Origin: Halofilum ochraceum | GTDB lineage: Bacteria; Pseudomonadota; Gammaproteobacteria; XJ16; Halofilaceae | Direction of reading: 5' to 3' | NCBI RefSeq assembly: GCF_001614315.2 | Contig: NZ_LVEG02000005.1 | Coordinates: 1-64,000 of the forward strand | DNA: 64,000 bases | In this document: positions 19,448 through 32,712 of the stretch, piece after piece | How the letters are laid out: every line of letters starts with the position of its first letter | How positions within the stretch are numbered: the first letter of the stretch is position 1 | Position numbers and translations under genes: made by a program | Notes under the pieces: generated by a model | Databases searched by the model: none | Seen by the model: the letters and a program-made list of their open reading frames with translations, nothing else | Told to the model about the DNA's origin: nothing

Positions 19448-19473
19448 GGTGTTGTCCTCCGTGGTCGGGGGCC

Positions 19474-20545: not shown

Positions 20546-21469
20546 TTACTCCGTGGTTTCTTCAAAGGAACGGAAGCGGCACTGGTTGTGAATCGGGCAG
20601 AAGCGGTGATGGCACATCATCGACCGCGGGTTGCCCCACCAAAGGCCGCTCTTGATGATCCCGGCCGCGTATTCCAGCAGGCCGGTCTGCGTGTTGTTGC
20701 CGAGCAGCAGGCCGCGCCCGTCGGGGATCGTGCCGATCCCGGCGGCCGGGGTGCCCTCGGTCTTGAGGCCGATGATCTTGCCCGGGGCGATCAGCTCCTC
20801 GCCCGTCGTGCGCTGGCCGAGCAGGCCGAGCAGCTCGTAGACCGCGAGCTGTGCGCCGTGCCAGTCCATCTTGACGTTGCCGACCGAATCCACGGCCGCA
20901 CGGCCCGTCTTGAGGTCGGCGATGCCGCGCCGCTCGACTTCGATACCTTCGTCGGTGGTGAATACGTCGCGGTAGATCCGGTCCAGCGTCCCGGTGAGGC
21001 GCAGCACGAGGCCGTCGCCCATGTCGATTTCGACTTCTTCACAGGTCAGCTCGACCGAGTCGAAGTCGAACCCGCCGGCTATGTCCTGGCAGTACAGGGC
21101 GACGAGGCCGACGCCCGTGCGCTCCGCCTCGGCCTTCTTCACGTCGAACCAGTGAACGTGCTCGTCGGCGCGGAACGCCTCCACGAACGCGTCGGCCGCG
21201 TCCGTGGGGTCCATCGTCCGGCCCTCCACGCGGGCCTGATCGAACAGGCCGGTCGCGTGGTGGACAGCCGTGCCCAAATGAGCGCGGCCGGAGTCCGGCA
21301 GGCTCTCGCCCTGCAGATGCTTCGCGGCCCACCGGGCGGGGCAGTCGAACAGCTCCGCCAGCGAGGACGCGCGGACACGCACGGCCACGTTGCCGTCCGG
21401 GCGCTCGGGGAAGCCCAACTCGTCCACGAGCCAGGCAACCCCTTTCGGGATGGGGGTAACGCCGGTCAT
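20546..21469 (-). CDS. PD-(D/E)XK exonuclease with a probable 4Fe-4S cluster
   Basis: 307 aa, RecB/Cas4-like nuclease. The active-site region runs GTLDRIYRD (about residues 153-161) to I-A-D-L-K-T-G (about 181-187). One Cys near the N-terminus (C43 in FDCPARW) and three near the C-terminus (C286, C291, C297) repeat the iron-sulfur arrangement of Cas4 and AddB. It should resect duplex ends to feed RecT. The start at 21469 overlaps the upstream stop (TAATG). It takes the place of the usual RecE/YqaJ partner. Confidence 0.8.
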   Translation of the reverse strand: MTGVTPIPKGVAWLVDELGFPERPDGNVAVRVRASSLAELFDCPARWAAKHLQGESLPDSGRAHLGTAVHHATGLFDQARVEGRTMDPTDAADAFVEAFRADEHVHWFDVKKAEAERTGVGLVALYCQDIAGGFDFDSVELTCEEVEIDMGDGLVLRLTGTLDRIYRDVFTTDEGIEVERRGIADLKTGRAAVDSVGNVKMDWHGAQLAVYELLGLLGQRTTGEELIAPGKIIGLKTEGTPAAGIGTIPDGRGLLLGNNTQTGLLEYAAGIIKSGLWWGNPRSMMCHHRFCPIHNQCRFRSFEETTE

Positions 21470-21906: not shown

Positions 21907-21953
21907 CACGATGTTCTCCGTGGTCGGCGCGGTGTGTTACCGCGACGCCCACG

Positions 21954-21982
21954 ATAATACGGTTCGTGATACTACGGGTCAA
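21954..21982 (-). promoter_or_regulatory. Leftward early promoter
   Basis: On the minus strand: TTGACC (21977-21982), 17-bp spacer, TATTAT (21954-21959). This is a near-consensus sigma-70 promoter. Operator 3 lies in its spacer and operator 4 overlaps the -35, so bound repressor would block it directly. Confidence 0.8.
21956..21970 (-). promoter_or_regulatory. Operator-like palindrome, site 3 (in the leftward promoter spacer)
   Basis: AATACGGTTCGTGAT on the plus strand, lying between the -10 and -35 of the leftward promoter. The classic location for repression. Confidence 0.75.
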
Positions 21983-21995
21983 AACATTTTGTGAT
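21981..21995 (-). promoter_or_regulatory. Operator-like palindrome, site 4 (weak)
   Basis: AAAACATTTTGTGAT. It matches the family less well, but is 10 bp beyond site 3 and overlaps the -35, as expected for a second cooperative operator. Confidence 0.55.
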
Positions 21996-22015: not shown

Positions 22016-22045
22016 GCGTGAGCCGGCCGGGCGGCCGGCTCACGC
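22016..22045 (-). terminator. Hairpin at the end of the repressor gene
   Basis: Perfect 13-bp stem GCGTGAGCCGGCC / GGCCGGCTCACGC with a GGGC loop, overlapping the repressor stop codon. No T run follows. Confidence 0.55.
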
Positions 22046-22720
22046 GCTGTTGGCGGTGTCCACGGTTGCCATCGACGCCGGCAGGCGGGGGCCGACGTGG
22101 TAGATATGCTCGATCTCCTCACGCGAGAGCGTGACGCGCTCGTTGGCGTCGCGCACGCCGAGCAGGACGTAGCGATCGGGGTGCTGGATGGCGAGTTCCA
22201 TGAACCGCTCGACCCCGTCAGTGGTTTTCACGAGCACGTACTCCCCCGGTACGAGGCTCTCGTTGGGCTCGATGACGACTATTTCCCCGTCGCGGAAAGC
22301 GGGCGAAAGGTGGTGATTGCACACCTGGACCGCGTACGCCGTGGGGTCCCCCGTTGGTGCGTTAATGGCCAGCTCCCTGGGTTCCGTTGGCTCGAGTGTG
22401 CGCCAGCTACCGTCCGCCCCGACACGGGCGGCGCCGGCTAATGTGAGGCGGCGCACATGGTACGTTCCAGGGTCTCCACGGTCTATAGGGCCACCGGGTC
22501 GAATCGGCTTCTCCCCGGTCAGAACCCACTCCTGGCGCACGCCGTAGGCCGCGGCGATGCGGGCGAGGTCGTCGTAGTCCGGGCTGCGCTGGCCGCGCTC
22601 GTACATCGACACGCGGCTCTGCGATTCCCATCCGCAGCGATAGGCCGCGGCCGTCTGAGACAGGCCGAGGCTCTGCCGCGCCTGGCGCAGCCGATCGCCC
22701 ACCGTTTCCTCGTTGCTCAT
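22040..22720 (-). CDS. CI-like phage repressor (HTH + S24 fold)
   Basis: 226 aa. The N-terminal XRE helix-turn-helix (about residues 8-62) contains the QSLGLSQTAAAYRCGWESQS region. The C-terminal domain resembles S24/LexA peptidases, with a possible Ala95-Gly96 cleavage pair. However, the usual Gly-Asp-Ser-Met-x-Pro is NHHLSP here (His137 at the Ser position), and the expected catalytic Lys region reads VERFMELA, so self-cleavage is doubtful. It lies between divergent early promoters and probably binds the ATCACGnnnCGTGTT sites. GAGGAAC precedes the ATG. Confidence 0.88.
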   Translation of the reverse strand: MSNEETVGDRLRQARQSLGLSQTAAAYRCGWESQSRVSMYERGQRSPDYDDLARIAAAYGVRQEWVLTGEKPIRPGGPIDRGDPGTYHVRRLTLAGAARVGADGSWRTLEPTEPRELAINAPTGDPTAYAVQVCNHHLSPAFRDGEIVVIEPNESLVPGEYVLVKTTDGVERFMELAIQHPDRYVLLGVRDANERVTLSREEIEHIYHVGPRLPASMATVDTANSA

Positions 22721-22831: not shown

Positions 22832-22860
22832 TTGTGCTCAACCGTTTGACCGGATAACAC
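22832..22860 (+). promoter_or_regulatory. Rightward early promoter (tentative)
   Basis: TTGTGC (22832-22837), 17 bp, TAACAC (22855-22860). A moderate sigma-70 match whose -10 overlaps operator 5. A half-matching palindrome (AGTGCGTTACGTGTT, 22800-22814) lies further upstream. Confidence 0.5.
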
Positions 22861-22870
22861 AAATCGTGAT
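22856..22870 (+). promoter_or_regulatory. Operator-like palindrome, site 5 (rightward promoter)
   Basis: AACACAAATCGTGAT, overlapping the likely -10 and start point of the cro-like transcript, 14 bp before its ATG. Confidence 0.75.
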
Positions 22871-22883
22871 TGCATTGCCCGCC

Positions 22884-23096
22884 ATGAACGGGCTCGAACA
22901 GGCAATCGAAATCGCCGGCGGCATCCCGCAGCTCGCGCGGCTGTGCGGGTATGACTACGACAGCCGCATCCGCAACTGGAGGAAACGGGGCGGCGCCGTG
23001 CCCGGTAAAGAGGTCCGCAAGGTGCGCCGGGCCGTCGATTACCGCGTTTCCGCCGAATCCCTGCTTGAGCCTGTCGATAGCGATCATCCCGTATAA
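22884..23096 (+). CDS. YdaS/Cro-like regulator
   Basis: 70 aa. One helix-turn-helix with the YdaS pattern: AGGIPQLARLCGYDYDSRIR, then NWRKRGGAVP and a basic helix. It is divergent from the repressor, with an operator just before its start, so it is the lytic-side Cro equivalent. There is no Shine-Dalgarno before ATG 22884, and the operator leaves a very short leader, so a leaderless or short-leader mRNA is possible. Its stop overlaps a terminator stem. Confidence 0.7.
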   Translation: MNGLEQAIEIAGGIPQLARLCGYDYDSRIRNWRKRGGAVPGKEVRKVRRAVDYRVSAESLLEPVDSDHPV

Positions 23097-27735: not shown

Positions 27736-28088
27736 CGCGCCACAAGCTGCCACGGCCGACGTCCCGGGCCGAGCTGGAGCTGCGACAGGAGGCCCTGGTC
27801 GAGGGATTCAAGCGGATAACGCCGATGCCGCGCGCGAAGCTTCGTAACAACTTCGGATTCCAGATGATCGCGCGGGCGGTTCGGGATCTCGGCCGGGAAA
27901 CGGACAGCAATGCGCCCGCGTGGGTGAAATACGGCCTGCAGGAATACTGGCGGCCGGACAACGAGGACTTCGAGCACCACTGTGATCTCTGTGAGCTGGA
28001 CCCCGACACCGTCCGCGAGCACGCCTACTACGCGGGCCTTCTCGACTTTCTCGATCCCGTGCCGGAGGTATTCGATGGAAGCGCATGA
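27732..28088 (+). CDS. Hypothetical phage protein
   Basis: 118 aa. Helical, with TPMPRAKLRNNFGFQMIARAVRD near residue 30 and a CDLCELDPD segment near residue 84. No firm family match. ATGA overlap with the upstream nuclease gene, 14-bp overlap with the next gene. Confidence 0.5.
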   Translation: MTRHKLPRPTSRAELELRQEALVEGFKRITPMPRAKLRNNFGFQMIARAVRDLGRETDSNAPAWVKYGLQEYWRPDNEDFEHHCDLCELDPDTVREHAYYAGLLDFLDPVPEVFDGSA

Positions 28089-28695
28089 GGTACCGCGCGA
28101 CGAGGTCCCGCGCCGGTTCGGCTCCGTGCTGGCGGCGGTGTCATGGGCCTACGAAACGGCCTCCAAATCCACGCACCAGCAGCCGGCCCTCGTGCCGACC
28201 AAGCGCGGGCGGGGCGGTTCGCCGCCGGAGGACTTCCAGGATCTCGCCTACTCCGTACTCGCGCACCTGGCGGCAATCTCCGAGCCGACCATATCGGGCA
28301 TGGCCGAGGCCGGCGGCATGGTCCGGGCGATGGCGGCCGACCCGGACACGCGCAGCCGGAACATGATCGGGCTGTGTTACTACCTGTCGCAGACCGTTAC
28401 AAGCTGGCCGGTCGATATGACCGAGCAGGAGCGTCGGGGAATGGCGATGGTGGCGATCCTGCGGATGGCCGACGAGCTGGAGCGCCCGGACGAGCCCGAA
28501 AGCAGCCGCCGGCCGCCGAAGCGTGCCTATGCCGACGTGGTCGACGTGCCGGCGCAGTCGATCTCGCAGCGGGCCCGGTGGCAACAGGTGGTCGGTGATC
28601 TGGAAAACGCGGTGCGCGTGATTCGGGATCGGGGCTTCAATTCCCTGCGGCTGCGGTTGCAGCTCGCGGGGATCGTGTACGGGGATCAGGAGTAG
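28075..28695 (+). CDS. Hypothetical protein in late-regulator (Q) position
   Basis: 206 aa, all-helical by appearance, no zinc finger. It is the last gene of the rightward early operon, followed by a terminator, where many phages keep the antiterminator Q or a RinA-type late activator. A late-regulatory role is inferred from position only. GGAGG is 5 bp before the ATG. Confidence 0.5.
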   Translation: MEAHEVPRDEVPRRFGSVLAAVSWAYETASKSTHQQPALVPTKRGRGGSPPEDFQDLAYSVLAHLAAISEPTISGMAEAGGMVRAMAADPDTRSRNMIGLCYYLSQTVTSWPVDMTEQERRGMAMVAILRMADELERPDEPESSRRPPKRAYADVVDVPAQSISQRARWQQVVGDLENAVRVIRDRGFNSLRLRLQLAGIVYGDQE

Positions 28696-28718
28696 GCGCC
28701 TTCCCTGGCGCCTCCTTT
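28694..28718. terminator. Terminator between convergent operons
   Basis: AGGCGCC / GGCGCCT stem with a TTCCCT loop and a short T-rich exit, in the 21-bp gap between the rightward early operon and the leftward accessory cluster. Confidence 0.6.
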
Positions 28719-28899
28719 ACGGTAGGCGATTCTCTTTACGGCGCAGCGCCTCGCAGGCGAGGGCCGTTTCTCGTTTGATCGTGCTGGCGCCGGACTCGAG
28801 GTATTCGTAGGAGCGGACGCCGCGCCCGAGCTGGCGCGCGGCCTCCTCCTGCGTCCATCCCATGTCGCGGCGCCACTGGCGGAGCTGTTCGGACGTCAA
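28717..28899 (-). CDS. Small HTH (XRE-like) protein
   Basis: 60 aa. Typical helix-turn-helix: QLRQWRRDMGWTQEEAARQL, then GVRSYEYLESG. The start is a TTG overlapping the upstream stop (TTGA) with a GGAGGCGGGGG site. As the last gene of the accessory cluster it may feed back on that cluster's promoter; this is inferred. Confidence 0.6.
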   Translation of the reverse strand: MTSEQLRQWRRDMGWTQEEAARQLGRGVRSYEYLESGASTIKRETALACEALRRKENRLP

Positions 28900-29336
28900 T
28901 CCCCCGCCTCCTCGTGTTTGTCCCTCATGTGCTGCCAGAGGCCCTCGACCTTCGTGTGCTTCGGGCACAAGGGGCACTGGACCTTTTCGGCGTGATGATA
29001 GCCGTGAATGTCGATCAGGTGGTCGCCGAGCCCGCGTGGTTTGACGTGCTTGCCGCAATGGGGGCAAGCGATTTTGCCGCCAGGGGCAGCCTCCCCGGCG
29101 ATCAGTGGTATATGCGTGGGCTCGTAGGTTACGGGGAATCCCGGCGCCTTTGTCCCGTAGTGCTGCAGGTTGGCGTCGCCGATGTACTCGCCGGTGTGTT
29201 CATCGAGCAGGCCCTCCAGGACCATGTCTGCAACTTCTCCCATTGGTTTCTCCTTTGGTGGATACAGTCGTTCAAGTTCGGTGCGGCTTACCCACCGCAC
29301 CGGCATAACTACGTCGGGGTAGCTGTCGGCCGCCAC
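28896..29336 (-). CDS. Double C2H2-type zinc-finger protein
   Basis: 146 aa. The C-terminal half carries two consecutive fingers, each C-x2-C-x11-H-x4-H: one starting CPHCGKHVKPRGLGDH and one starting CPLCPKHTKVEGLWQH. The start is a GTG at 29336 behind AAGGAGG; an in-frame ATG at 29243 also has AAAGGAG, so a shorter 115-aa form is possible. C2H2 pairs are uncommon in phage proteins. Likely nucleic-acid or protein binding; target unknown. Confidence 0.65.
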   Translation of the reverse strand: MAADSYPDVVMPVRWVSRTELERLYPPKEKPMGEVADMVLEGLLDEHTGEYIGDANLQHYGTKAPGFPVTYEPTHIPLIAGEAAPGGKIACPHCGKHVKPRGLGDHLIDIHGYHHAEKVQCPLCPKHTKVEGLWQHMRDKHEEAGD

Positions 29337-29356
29337 GAAGCCTCCTTATCAGTCGT

Positions 29357-29584
29357 TCACATGAAGTCGACGTCGTCGGGGAGAGGCCAGTCATGGCCGC
29401 AATGCTTGCAATGCAGCCGCTCGTGCTCGCCGTCGTCGCCGGGGCTTATGTTCCCGTCGATCCAGAGGCGGCCGTGCTCGTCGTAGCCGCGCACGTCGCG
29501 GTCCACGAGCACGTATTCGGTATGCACGATGCGGTCGCTTTCGCATTTCGGGCAGGTGAGCGTGGTCAGCGTGTGGGGGCTCAT
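29357..29584 (-). CDS. Small zinc-ribbon protein
   Basis: 75 aa. Two CxxC pairs (CPKC near residue 11, CKHC near residue 59) separated by an acidic loop make a zinc ribbon. Function unknown. ATGA overlap with the upstream gene. Confidence 0.6.
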   Translation of the reverse strand: MSPHTLTTLTCPKCESDRIVHTEYVLVDRDVRGYDEHGRLWIDGNISPGDDGEHERLHCKHCGHDWPLPDDVDFM

Positions 29585-29853
29585 AGGGCAAGCTCCTTCT
29601 GTTCGTTGAATTGCTCGGGGTACGCCTTCGCGCGTCCCTCCGGGTCGATGGCCCAACCGTCGGCCGTGCGCTCGATGGAGGCGCGTTCGCCGTGCTCGCG
29701 GATGAATACGCGGTCGGCCCACTCCCGGCGGCTGGCGTGGAAGTTGGCGGCCTTGTGCTCGCTCGGCCGGACGCACCACGTACCGGCCCGGGCGCCGCAG
29801 TCCGGGCAGGTAACGGCCATGACGGGGTGCTGGTGGGCGGTGAAGTCGATCAT
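29581..29853 (-). CDS. Small zinc-binding phage protein
   Basis: 90 aa. The segment VTCPDCGARAGTWCVRPSEH followed by HASRREWA is a recurring phage/actinophage-type zinc motif (C-x2-C-x6-C). Role unknown. Coupled by ATGA overlaps on both sides. Confidence 0.6.
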   Translation of the reverse strand: MIDFTAHQHPVMAVTCPDCGARAGTWCVRPSEHKAANFHASRREWADRVFIREHGERASIERTADGWAIDPEGRAKAYPEQFNEQKELAL

Positions 29854-30032
29854 TGCGCCTCCGCGATCGGCGTGAGGCGTTCGTGGTGGACGACGTAGGT
29901 GTGGCCGTCCCACTCGCCCGGGTAGTGGACCCGGACCTTCACGTGGCCCTCTCGGGCGTATTCAAGGATCGACACGCGGAAGATTCCGCCCATGCCGCTC
30001 GGGATCGTGTGTGTTGCGTCGTGAATGCTCAT
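29850..30032 (-). CDS. Hypothetical phage protein
   Basis: 60 aa, beta-rich, with VRVHYPGEWDGHTYVVHHER in the middle. No known family. GGAGAACGAC precedes the ATG. Confidence 0.5.
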   Translation of the reverse strand: MSIHDATHTIPSGMGGIFRVSILEYAREGHVKVRVHYPGEWDGHTYVVHHERLTPIAEAQ

Positions 30033-30056
30033 TGTCGTTCTCCGTGGCTGGTTGTC

Positions 30057-30491
30057 TTATTCGGTGGAGCGGATCGCGTTCTCGGCCGCCTGCTGGATCG
30101 TGTCGTAGGCGTCGGTGGGCAGGCCGTCGCGGCGAAACTCGTACAGGTGCCCGGCGCCCTCGGGGGCGGACGGATCGAGCCGGACGTGAATCGACAGCTC
30201 ATGGCCGTTGTATTCGGCCTGCTGGCGGCGGATCAGCTCGTCCAGCGCGATCTGGCGATTGGCGGCATCGTCCTCGCGCGGCCCGGGGCGCGTTGCCGCT
30301 GGCTCGCCGAGCACGGCCGACAGGCGGCCGGAGAGCTTCTGCGCTTCTTCGATCCGGTCGTCCAGCGAGGCGCGGTCGTCGTCGAGGATCACGTTGTCCC
30401 GTGCGTCCTGCAGCTCCTCGATCAGCTCGTCCACGGCCTCGCGGGCCTGCGTTGCGAGTGCGCGCTCCATGTTTACGGTTGGTTCGTTCAT
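30057..30491 (-). CDS. Hypothetical helical phage protein
   Basis: 144 aa, acidic, predicted mostly helical (VDELIEELQDARDNVILDDD, then ASLDDRIEEAQKLSGRL). No known domain. GGAGAAAGACG lies before the ATG, as for several genes of this cluster. Confidence 0.55.
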   Translation of the reverse strand: MNEPTVNMERALATQAREAVDELIEELQDARDNVILDDDRASLDDRIEEAQKLSGRLSAVLGEPAATRPGPREDDAANRQIALDELIRRQQAEYNGHELSIHVRLDPSAPEGAGHLYEFRRDGLPTDAYDTIQQAAENAIRSTE

Positions 30492-30559
30492 CGTCTTTCT
30501 CCGTGGTCGGGTAGTGGGCCCGACGCTGCCCCGGCCGCGCCGGGGCAACGGCTGGCCGG

Positions 30560-30967
30560 CTACGCGAGGTCGTCGTGCTGGCCTTGGATGCAGGCGACAA
30601 CGGCGAGGTCCTCCATGTCCTCGACGCAGCCGGTATCCCGCGTGACCTGTAGGCGGGCGTTTTCAACGGCGTTATCGGGGCCGGTGGCTTCGACGGCTCC
30701 CATCCATGTGTCCTGCCCGTAGTTGTCGGTCATGTAATCCGGGTACAGCAGGATCACGGTGTAGGTCGTGGTGCGGCTGGTGTTGATCTCCTCGCACAGC
30801 TCGTCGATCTGCTCGACCGTCAGGCCCTCGTGGGCGCCGTCGCAGGTAAGGATGGCGCCAATGTCGCCTTCCTCGTGGAACACGGCGCCGGCCTCAATGT
30901 CGCGCTGCAGGCAGCGCAGGCCGGCGAGCATGGCGTCGACTTTCATTTGCTTGGTTGCGGTGCTCAT
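30560..30967 (-). CDS. Hypothetical phage protein
   Basis: 135 aa, acidic, six Cys scattered, with TTTYTVILLYPDYMTDNYGQ forming a beta core. No known family. Ribosome site GGAGATAACCCC resembles those of its neighbours. Confidence 0.55.
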   Translation of the reverse strand: MSTATKQMKVDAMLAGLRCLQRDIEAGAVFHEEGDIGAILTCDGAHEGLTVEQIDELCEEINTSRTTTYTVILLYPDYMTDNYGQDTWMGAVEATGPDNAVENARLQVTRDTGCVEDMEDLAVVACIQGQHDDLA

Positions 30968-30996
30968 GGGGTTATCTCCGTGGTTGCTGGCGTTGC

Positions 30997-31212
30997 TTAT
31001 GCTTTGCGGCCGCAGATTTCGCAGGCCGTGGTGATGCCTTCCTCGTGCTCGACGTGCCGCGCCTCCTCGGGAATGATCTCGACCACTTCCTCTCCGCCCC
31101 GGTCGATGCACGTGTAACGGGTGCTTTCGGGGGCGCAGGCGCCGCAGAAAACGCGGCCGTTGTCGCCGAGATAAAGGAGGTTGTCGCGCAGCAGGGGCTC
31201 TTGTTCGGTCAT
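30997..31212 (-). CDS. Small Cys-rich (zinc-binding) protein
   Basis: 71 aa with CxxC near residue 23 (CGAC), a lone Cys, and a C-terminal CEIC near residue 65. Probable zinc ribbon with strongly acidic middle. Function unknown. Confidence 0.55.
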   Translation of the reverse strand: MTEQEPLLRDNLLYLGDNGRVFCGACAPESTRYTCIDRGGEEVVEIIPEEARHVEHEEGITTACEICGRKA

Positions 31213-31235
31213 GGTTTTCTCCGTGGTCGTGCTTG

Positions 31236-31502
31236 TTACCAGTCGATGCGGTTCTGCTTGAGGAACCACATCGGGACGCCAACCGAGTCGCCAAAATGCT
31301 CGTTGCCCTCGGATGGTGGGAGGCGGCGCAGAAGCGATACCGGGCAACCAAAAGTGCCCAGGTGCTTCGGCTTGTCGAAGTAAGCGGCCTTGCCGCTTTC
31401 GCTCGTTTCGTAAGTGTCGCCTTCGGCCGCGCGGGCTACGCCGACGTAGCTGCGGGCCTTCTTGGGATCGACCCTGGGGATCTGTGTGGCTTCCAGGTTC
31501 AT
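31236..31502 (-). CDS. Hypothetical phage protein
   Basis: 88 aa. Notable strings are KKARSYVGVARAAEGDTYET and GVPMWFLKQNRIDW at the C-terminus. No family recognised. GGAGAACGACG before the ATG. Confidence 0.5.
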   Translation of the reverse strand: MNLEATQIPRVDPKKARSYVGVARAAEGDTYETSESGKAAYFDKPKHLGTFGCPVSLLRRLPPSEGNEHFGDSVGVPMWFLKQNRIDW

Positions 31503-31572
31503 CGTCGTTCTCCGTGGTCGGGGTTGCCCGTCGATGGGCCTTCGTCCTTGAAGGCGCATCGGCTGGCAGGGT

Positions 31573-31944
31573 TTATGACGGTTCTGCGTCCGGGCCGACC
31601 GCTTCGCCCGCCATTTGGGCAACGCGGCTGTCCTCGAACTCGTGGAAGGCGGCAAAGCCTTCGTAGTGGGTCGCATAGCGCGGGACGAAGCCGGCGATCA
31701 GCTCGCCGGAGTCCCGGTCCATGTGCTCAAGGATTCCGCCCACGTCATGGATGAAGTCGGCGTCGGATGCGGCGAGAAGCTCCTCCCACTCGATGGGATA
31801 GTTGCCGTTGGCGCCGTCGGCCGCGAGCAGTCCGATAGTCACGTCGGCCTTGGTGGGCGGCACGCTGCCGGCCCGGGTGCAGATGCCGATAAAGCGTTCT
31901 GCGGCTTCTTTCGCTTGCGGCGTGTTCTGGCTGTTGAAACGCAT
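31573..31944 (-). CDS. Hypothetical acidic phage protein
   Basis: 123 aa, acidic. It has FIGICTRAGSVPPTKADVTI and LEHMDRDSGELIAGF segments. No domain recognised; strong GGAGGCAACC ribosome site. Confidence 0.55.
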   Translation of the reverse strand: MRFNSQNTPQAKEAAERFIGICTRAGSVPPTKADVTIGLLAADGANGNYPIEWEELLAASDADFIHDVGGILEHMDRDSGELIAGFVPRYATHYEGFAAFHEFEDSRVAQMAGEAVGPDAEPS

Positions 31945-31954
31945 GGTTGCCTCC

Positions 31955-32218
31955 TTATCGGGCAGCGGGGCGCCGGGGCGCGTAGATGCTGGACATGGGG
32001 CGCTTGCTCGGGGTGCGCTTGCTCCGCTGCGGCATGGCTGCGGCCTGGCGCTGCGCCCGGTTGATTAATTCGCGGGTGGGCTCGACGCCGTACATGACGA
32101 GCGCATCGCGGGCGTGGAACCGCTCGGATTGTCCGGCCAGCCCGTTGTGCCGGACGTAGTCGATGGCGCGGGCGGCGGCCCGAACGGCGCGGTCGATTTC
32201 TTGCTGCGTGTTTTTCAT
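31955..32218 (-). CDS. Hypothetical basic phage protein, first gene of the accessory cluster
   Basis: 87 aa, basic tail (PQRSKRTPSKRPMSS region). Directly behind the cluster promoter. Likely nucleic-acid binding by charge; no known family. Confidence 0.55.
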   Translation of the reverse strand: MKNTQQEIDRAVRAAARAIDYVRHNGLAGQSERFHARDALVMYGVEPTRELINRAQRQAAAMPQRSKRTPSKRPMSSIYAPRRPAAR

Positions 32219-32252
32219 TGGGTTCTCCGTGGTGTCGTTGTCGACAAGCGAA

Positions 32253-32281
32253 AGCTAACCCGCAAAAACTGCGGGTGTCAA
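32253..32281 (-). promoter_or_regulatory. Leftward promoter of the accessory cluster
   Basis: On the minus strand: consensus TTGACA (32276-32281), exactly 17 bp, TTAGCT (32253-32258). The whole spacer is an inverted repeat (CCCGCA, five bases, TGCGGG; 32259-32275), and operator 7 overlaps the -35, suggesting control by two factors. Confidence 0.8.
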
Positions 32282-32294
32282 CACAGAATGTGAT
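32280..32294 (-). promoter_or_regulatory. Operator-like palindrome, site 7 (accessory promoter)
   Basis: AACACAGAATGTGAT, overlapping the -35 of the accessory-cluster promoter by two bases. Confidence 0.65.
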
Positions 32295-32404: not shown

Positions 32405-32419
32405 CGCACGTTTCGTGAT
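32405..32419 (+). promoter_or_regulatory. Operator-like palindrome, site 8 (before the tRNA)
   Basis: CGCACGTTTCGTGAT, ending 5 bp before the tRNA gene, so a bound protein would cover or block the tRNA promoter or elongating polymerase. Confidence 0.6.
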
Positions 32420-32423
32420 CTGT

Positions 32424-32500
32424 AGCGGGGTGGCGCAGTCAGGCAGCGCGCTGGGCTCATAACCCGGAGGACGCAGGTTCGAATCCTGCCCCCGCTACCA
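32424..32500 (+). tRNA. tRNA-Met(CAT), initiator-like
   Basis: 77 nt including an encoded CCA. It folds as acceptor AGCGGGG/CCCCGCT, D stem GCGC/GCGC, anticodon stem CTGGG/CCCGG with loop CTCATAA, variable AGGAC, and T arm GCAGG-TTCGAAT-CCTGC. Three G-C pairs below the anticodon loop are the hallmark of initiator tRNA. But position 1:72 is an A-T pair, where bacterial initiators have a C-A mismatch. It is surrounded by phage genes and not part of an att site. Confidence 0.93.
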
Positions 32501-32548
32501 GCAGATACCTTATGAGCCCGACTGACCCCTGCGGGGGTATGCCAGCAG

Positions 32549-32586
32549 GCCCCGGCGGCGGCACCGGATCGCCGTCGGGGCTTTTT
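32549..32586 (+). terminator. Terminator after the phage tRNA
   Basis: GCCCCGGCGGC / GCCGTCGGGGC stem (one mismatch) followed by five T's. Confidence 0.75.
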
Positions 32587-32681
32587 GGGTTCATGCCGAG
32601 CACCGGGCGCGGAGCCCCCGCAATCTGCGCGCCCGCTTAGGGCCGCCCCTCCGGTCGTGCAAGAGGGGTTCTTCGTGGTCT

Positions 32682-32712
32682 GCCCCACGGCCAGTGGTCG
32701 TGGGGCTTTTTT
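32682..32712 (+). terminator. Terminator ahead of the terminase operon
   Basis: GCCCCACG / CGTGGGGC stem and six T's, ending one base before a possible ATG at 32713. That placement argues for the later terminase start at 32728. Late transcription must start after it or be antiterminated through it. Confidence 0.75.

Follow-up and report, generated by a model that had tools for sequence, protein, structure and literature searches.

How is a run of eleven short genes that faces the operons on both sides of it controlled within a prophage, and to which part of the phage programme does it belong? The genes (g1-g11) lie on the minus strand at 28717-32218 of the first 64,000 nucleotides of contig NZ_LVEG02000005.1 (C5; assembly GCF_001614315.2) of Halofilum ochraceum. 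This stretch, hereafter the window, is the start of C5 in a 3.64-Mb genome and contains a temperate prophage resident in the bacterial chromosome. An earlier note, made from the DNA letters, had taken the genes for a separately controlled accessory cluster, read early from a near-consensus promoter and possibly holding anti-defence or host take-over factors. We consider, at a probability of about 0.7, that these genes make up a third early operon, governed by the phage CI-type repressor, and that a short repeat at many of its gene starts, the start-associated sequence (SAS), is a translation-initiation element shared with another early operon.

That the eleven minus-strand open reading frames are genes is indicated by their coding-type GC content at third codon positions (0.74-0.88), by ribosome-binding sites and by a gene call weighing both strands, which picks 11 of 11. 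They occupy the space between a rightward early operon and a tRNA gene, and oppose plus-strand operons on either side, as had been described.

A shared operator ties the cluster to the lysogeny circuit. The CI-like repressor gene sits between divergent early promoters, pL and pR; besides its HTH_3 match, its product has an S24 peptidase-like match of 21.3 bits, below the Pfam profile cut-off of 23.3 bits. Comparison of the cluster promoter, pL and pR regions gave a 15-bp palindrome, AWCACRNNNYGTGWT, that is A(A/T)CAC(A/G)NNN(C/T)GTG(A/T)T. Its exact form occurs four times in 3.64 Mb, each time in the prophage (8022; 22856, at pR; 25989; 32280, over the -35 of the cluster promoter), and at up to one mismatch the prophage holds 10 of the 41 genomic sites, two of them at pL. 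pL and the cluster promoter share the phase of the operator, which at either one ends exactly two bases into the -35. Fairly stated, a pattern defined on early promoters recurs, in its exact form, elsewhere in the prophage and is otherwise absent from 3.6 Mb of host DNA. The operator reported earlier over the -35 is better founded than had been claimed. Since it is common to pR, pL and the cluster promoter, we place the cluster in the repressor regulon; the proposed separate control gives way to co-control by the phage repressor, and we infer that CI is the protein that binds these sites.

Regulons of the lambda type have a repressor gene between divergent early promoters that share palindromic operators, and cluster A mycobacteriophages such as L5 have operators scattered over their genomes (stoperators). 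The prophage resembles these systems in having shared palindromic operators at pL and pR and extra sites across its length, but differs from the lambda type in a third, putatively repressor-controlled promoter, which serves a cluster that reads leftward and separates the rightward early operon from the late genes. Further copies of the palindrome away from pL and pR (8022, 12360, 15402, 18326, 25989 and 32322), some of them intragenic, are by analogy possible stoperator-like sites. An operator-like sequence with two mismatches is also present at 32405, immediately upstream of the tRNA-Met gene.

In a lysogen, CI would occupy the palindrome over the cluster -35, as at pL and pR, and the operon would be off. 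Once repression is lost, by induction or on infection of a non-immune host, pL, pR and the cluster promoter would fire together, and the eleven small proteins would be produced alongside the recombination functions.

The cluster promoter is less canonical than 'near-consensus' suggests. Its -35 matches the consensus at 6/6 positions, but the -10 candidates are TTAGCT (2/6) at 17 bp and TAGCTT (3/6) at 18 bp, and a sigma-70 consensus scan of the region detected no promoter. The inverted repeat said to fill the 17-bp spacer, CCCGCAGTTTTTGCGGG, is there as described. No second copy exists in the genome at up to two mismatches, so there is no sign of protein binding to it, and as the site of a known regulator it was rejected, being unique and offering nothing to compare.

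Gene starts provide another tie between the cluster and the pL operon, one that the earlier note had missed, together with an antisense copy of the same sequence. The SAS has the consensus GACCACGGAGAA-n-ATG and stands before six genes of the cluster and three of the pL operon, all with uncoupled starts (Table 1). In the six cluster genes it reads CCACGGAGAA and lies 4-6 nt 5' of the ATG, g5 differing with AGAT. Eight consecutive bases, CCACGGAG, are invariant in 9/9 copies, with GA and AA preferred as flanks; little is conserved outside this core, and nothing upstream of about -3. Whereas CCACGGAG precedes nine genes, no 8-mer exceeded four occurrences when the columns of the upstream regions were permuted 500 times, and CCACGGAGAW-n-ATG occurs eight times in the genome, six of these within the cluster. 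All nine copies are on the minus strand of the two early operons, and a single copy has the opposite orientation.

The SAS is found at 6/8 uncoupled cluster starts and, in the pL operon, at the three uncoupled starts nearest the promoter. It is missing from every gene that begins within the preceding one and from the uncoupled pL-operon genes farther from the promoter; the two uncoupled cluster genes that lack it, g2 and g10, have ordinary AAGGAGG-type sites instead. Only GGAG can pair with the usual anti-Shine-Dalgarno sequence (the established one, as 16S rRNA was not found in the host assembly), so that CCAC and the trailing AA are unexplained by such pairing. Most likely, as judged from its sequence and distribution, the SAS acts as a shared translation-initiation element at promoter-proximal uncoupled starts of both leftward early operons, where GGAG would pair with 16S rRNA and the flanks would be read by something else. 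The presence of the SAS in six cluster genes and in the pL recombination operon, and that of an operator as at pR and pL, also support the earlier suggestion that the cluster would be expressed early.

Table 1. Coordinates of the cluster genes, regulatory sequences and neighbouring features in the window.
Feature	Position	Strand	Description
g1	31955..32218	-	87 aa, basic; first gene of the operon; SAS; no family match
g2	31573..31944	-	123 aa, net charge -13; DUF6874 (PF21779), E 6.7e-17, above cut-off
g3	31236..31502	-	88 aa; no function assigned; SAS
g4	30997..31212	-	71 aa, acidic; two CxxC (zinc-ribbon-like); SAS
g5	30560..30967	-	135 aa, net charge -19; SAS; no viral-contig relative
g6	30057..30491	-	144 aa, net charge -16; SAS
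g7	29850..30032	-	60 aa; SAS
g8	29581..29853	-	90 aa; Phage_zn_bind_8 (PF24623), E 1.9e-10, above cut-off; start overlaps g7; no SAS
g9	29357..29584	-	75 aa; CxxC...CxxC zinc-ribbon-like, Pfam below cut-offs; start overlaps g8; no SAS
g10	28896..29336	-	146 aa; GTG start; two C2H2 fingers, zf-Di19 (PF05605) above cut-off
g11	28717..28899	-	60 aa; DNA-binding protein of the HTH_31/HTH_3 type; end of the operon; start overlaps g10
SAS of g1	32223..32232	-	CCACGGAGAA
SAS of g3	31508..31517	-	
SAS of g4	31217..31226	-	
SAS of g5	30974..30983	-	CCACGGAGAT
SAS of g6	30497..30506	-	
SAS of g7	30038..30047	-	
SAS of first pL-operon gene	21914..21923	-	ATG 21906
SAS variant, RecT gene	20547..20556	-	CCACGGAGTA; ATG 20541
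SAS variant, SbcC-like gene	19455..19464	-	CCACGGAGGA; ATG 19447
Cluster operator	32280..32294		ATCACATTCTGTGTT; one of four exact genomic matches; over -35
-35 of cluster promoter	32276..32281	-	TTGACA, 6/6 consensus match
Spacer palindrome	32259..32275		CCCGCAGTTTTTGCGGG; fills 17-bp spacer of cluster promoter
pR operator	22856..22870		AACACAAATCGTGAT; between -35 and -10 candidates
pL operator 1	21981..21995		one mismatch; ends two bases into -35 TTGACC (-10 TATTAT)
pL operator 2	21956..21970		over pL spacer and -10
CI-type repressor	22040..22720	-	HTH_3; S24 peptidase-like below cut-off
tRNA-Met	32424..32500	+	upstream of terS leader
Candidate small RNA	32631..32712	+	82 nt from an arbitrarily set 5' end; predicted fold of two hairpins, an open stretch holding the antisense copy, and the terminator
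Antisense SAS copy	32666..32680	+	GGGTTCTTCGTGGTC; noncoding leader between tRNA-Met and terS
Intrinsic terminator	32682..32706	+	11-bp, six-U tail; one base after antisense copy, just 5' of terS

The SAS could also mark boundaries for the recombination of small cassettes, the single opposite copy being a decayed minus-strand SAS left by a lost cassette. Consistent with this tentative alternative, the SAS precede unrelated genes with nothing conserved past the core, the prophage encodes RecT, and on the minus strand positions 32680-32666 read GACCACGAAGAACCC, one mismatch from the SAS. However, restriction to uncoupled starts and a near-fixed spacing to the ATG fit initiation better than cassette boundaries, and the opposite copy is located 5' of the cluster promoter, where the gene call places no minus-strand gene behind it.

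Read on the plus strand, the opposite copy (GGGTTCTTCGTGGTC) pairs with GACCACGGAGAA at 12/12 positions, one of them G-U, and over 14 positions with the SAS region of g1. It might thus belong to a small RNA of the terS leader (about 32631-32712, plus strand) that pairs with the SAS of up to nine early genes and blocks or times their translation at the turn to late functions, an addition to the repressor-operon explanation and not a replacement for it. We hold this to be improbable, although several features speak for it. Sequences pairing with all 12 bases are expected 0.06 times per window and one was found outside the SAS antisense strands, with three pairing equally well in the remaining 3.6 Mb; this probability is partly post hoc, because the copy was noticed while promoter regions were being compared. 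Of ~25,600 segments covering both strands of the 64 kb, none but trivial ones surpasses it in duplex energy against the nine start regions together, although the margin is small (-29.1 versus -27.9 kcal/mol). A strong terminator with six U follows after one base, and the 82-nt segment folds better than 200/200 shuffles (z -3.4), a score to which this terminator adds. The antisense stretch is largely open for the assumed 5' end, but its openness varies from 0.24 to 0.85 with that choice.

Other observations argue against such an RNA. No promoter was detected for it in the leader region, and an earlier terminator (32547-32583) separates tRNA-Met from the leader; processing from a longer leader is possible. 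No relatives were found in which covariation could be followed, and a decayed minus-strand SAS explains the sequence equally well. Nor do known repeats offer a parallel: that of Citrobacter phage Mordin is absent from the opposite strand over the 45 kb that were inspected, and the reversed copy in mycobacteriophage Anaya is arranged differently.

These comparisons help to place the SAS, in our view most likely an initiation element. The SAS of cluster K mycobacteriophages has been known since 2011, its function being unknown (Pope et al., 2011, PMC3203893; PMC11373665). Like it (PMC3203893; PMC11373665; PMC12699233), the element described here is a short asymmetric repeat with a Shine-Dalgarno core a few nucleotides 5' of the ATG, serves many non-structural genes in essentially one orientation, is rare in the host genome and is conserved past the Shine-Dalgarno core. 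Since the consensus is GACCACGGAGAA here and GGGATAGGAGCCC in cluster K, we consider the two elements alike in kind, though the one described here falls outside the cluster K family. Half of the cluster K sites are extended by a 17-bp inverted-repeat promoter (extended SAS, ESAS), whereas none is found at the SAS here, which is confined to uncoupled starts of leftward early operons; phage and host are unrelated as well.

A single reversed SAS has been noted in cluster K phages. In Anaya (JF704106, ~59870, minus strand; L163 near 33871) this lone copy lies in a 385-nt noncoding gap, and its own strand then shows a strong terminator-like hairpin, so that the locus may encode a small RNA with the SAS in its sense orientation. 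As a parallel to the antisense RNA it was rejected, the hairpin being downstream on the SAS-sense strand, that is, on the other strand relative to the prophage described here, and we do not count Anaya as support. The 26-bp repeat of Mordin, a Felix O1-like phage (PMC4611695), likewise stands directly 5' of a run of small hypothetical genes, but differs in sequence.

The same SAS sequence occurs in unrelated viral contigs (L070, L049, L089, L174, L186 and L170), where, the contigs having been retrieved by searching for that sequence, it represents recurrence and not descent. In some of them it forms a repeated start tag: L070 (IMGVR_UViG_3300005613_000686), L049, L089, L174 and L186 (55-57% GC; AAA ATPase and other genes) have ACCACGGAGAA(n)CATCATG, often preceded by a short palindrome, for example ATGCGGGCGCAT. 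In genome G002, one contig has two SAS matches, which were dismissed as chance because the window genes have no match there.

What the cluster proteins do was the remaining claim of the earlier note, which favoured anti-defence or host take-over. Its description of the products was accurate: at least four carry zinc motifs (g4, g8, g9 and g10), several are strongly acidic (g2, g5 and g6), a helix-turn-helix protein closes the cluster (g11), and none has a firm function in Pfam, NCBIfam, PADLOC and PHROGs scans. Matches above the Pfam cut-off are limited to DUF6874 (g2), Phage_zn_bind_8 (g8), zf-Di19 (g10) and HTH_31 (g11), and CxxC motifs occur in 4/11 cluster genes versus 4/64 other phage genes. 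The PHROGs, NCBIfam and PADLOC scans of g1-g10 gave nothing informative (g11 was scanned separately, by other profile scans only), and these scans and Pfam returned no anti-defence family. Single-sequence structure predictions for g5 and g6 (mean predicted local distance difference test scores of 50 and 71; predicted template modelling score ~0.4) were not used.

Small orphan proteins that are acidic or bind zinc, in an apparent early operon, are what such factors look like, and a DUF6874 protein also occurs in the small-gene cluster beside terS of Burkholderia phage CSP3. We nevertheless consider this reading doubtful, for positive evidence is lacking: no anti-defence family was matched, the operator indicates co-control, and relatives of g10 lie within recombination operons. 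DUF6874 relatives are found in Burkholderia and Pseudomonas phages, and Xanthomonas phages have a relative of the middle part and first finger of g10 between a recombinase and an exonuclease gene. These g10 relatives begin near an inner ATG at 29243; in g10 itself, translation could begin in the same frame at GTG 29336 or at ATG 29243, and a good ribosome-binding site precedes either codon. The placement of g2 and g10 relatives, in small-gene clusters or recombination operons, does not discriminate on anti-defence. Lessievirus podoviruses (CSP3; the Bcep22-like JC1, PMC9144972) resemble the prophage in having about a dozen small hypothetical genes beside terS, with DUF6874 the only protein clearly in common between CSP3 and the cluster, but their small genes share the terS strand and no SAS was seen there. 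Individually, the cluster proteins likeliest belong to an accessory, host-modulating class.

Several points weigh against the cluster being a third CI-repressed operon. The operator consensus was drawn from these very promoters, which makes the genome count less than fully independent as a test. With its poor -10, the cluster promoter may be weak or depend on an activator, and a second regulator that this account leaves out may act at the spacer palindrome. Finally, no relative found in the genomes and viral contigs searched carries the cluster.

The closest full TerL matches reach 53% identity among genomes and 51% among viral contigs. Distant TerL relatives have no trace of the cluster, and the TerL-relative loci examined have neither cluster nor SAS, nor any repeated upstream motif. 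Two genomes of the same genus are without TerL, and g2 and g5 have no relatives among the viral contigs searched. A 10-kb contig with a portal protein of 71% identity and a partial terL begins inside terL and hence lacks the leader. The nearest known relative (L165, IMGVR_UViG_3300028304_000048) is a 10-kb contig with structural genes 46-77% identical, its early region lying off the contig. As relatives lack the cluster, and DUF6874 and g10 relatives occur in other contexts, it gives the impression of small genes of early type that were gathered locally.

The rest of the prophage is arranged as follows. Leftward from ~22 kb, the CI-type repressor is followed by the pL-type operon, which encodes a PD-(D/E)XK exonuclease, RecT, an SbcC/SMC-like ATPase and, as judged from its own sequence, an SSB-like protein, with an integrase at the far end. 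Rightward, a Cro-like YdaS-family gene beside pR opens a plus-strand operon that extends to 28695. The best pR -10 candidate, TTGCAT (within 22846-22884, plus strand), ends ~8 nt 5' of the Cro-like ATG, and the mRNA of this gene may be leaderless. The final gene of the rightward operon (28075-28695, plus strand; 206 aa) has no family match; lambda carries Q at the matching position. Beyond the cluster, tRNA-Met, terS, terL and the structural genes follow on the plus strand. The tRNA-Met has a second copy at C5:332872-332950, with 90% identity over 79 bases. TerL relatives include phiV10/epsilon15-like phages, for example TL-2011b, which we take to be podoviruses, and we assign the prophage to the podovirus-like phages on this assumption. 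A comparison of the flanks tested yielded no repeat of at least 13 bp that could represent attL/attR.

New here are the operator regulon, the SAS and an antisense candidate that can be tested. By the operator analysis, what had been called an accessory cluster would become a third, defined arm of the lysogeny regulon. The SAS marks most of the uncoupled promoter-proximal early starts in two putatively repressor-controlled operons, and the antisense candidate makes its role testable. Long odds though we give it, a small RNA of the terS leader that silences or times as many as nine early genes, drawn from both of these operons, would, if true, be the first functional account of an SAS.

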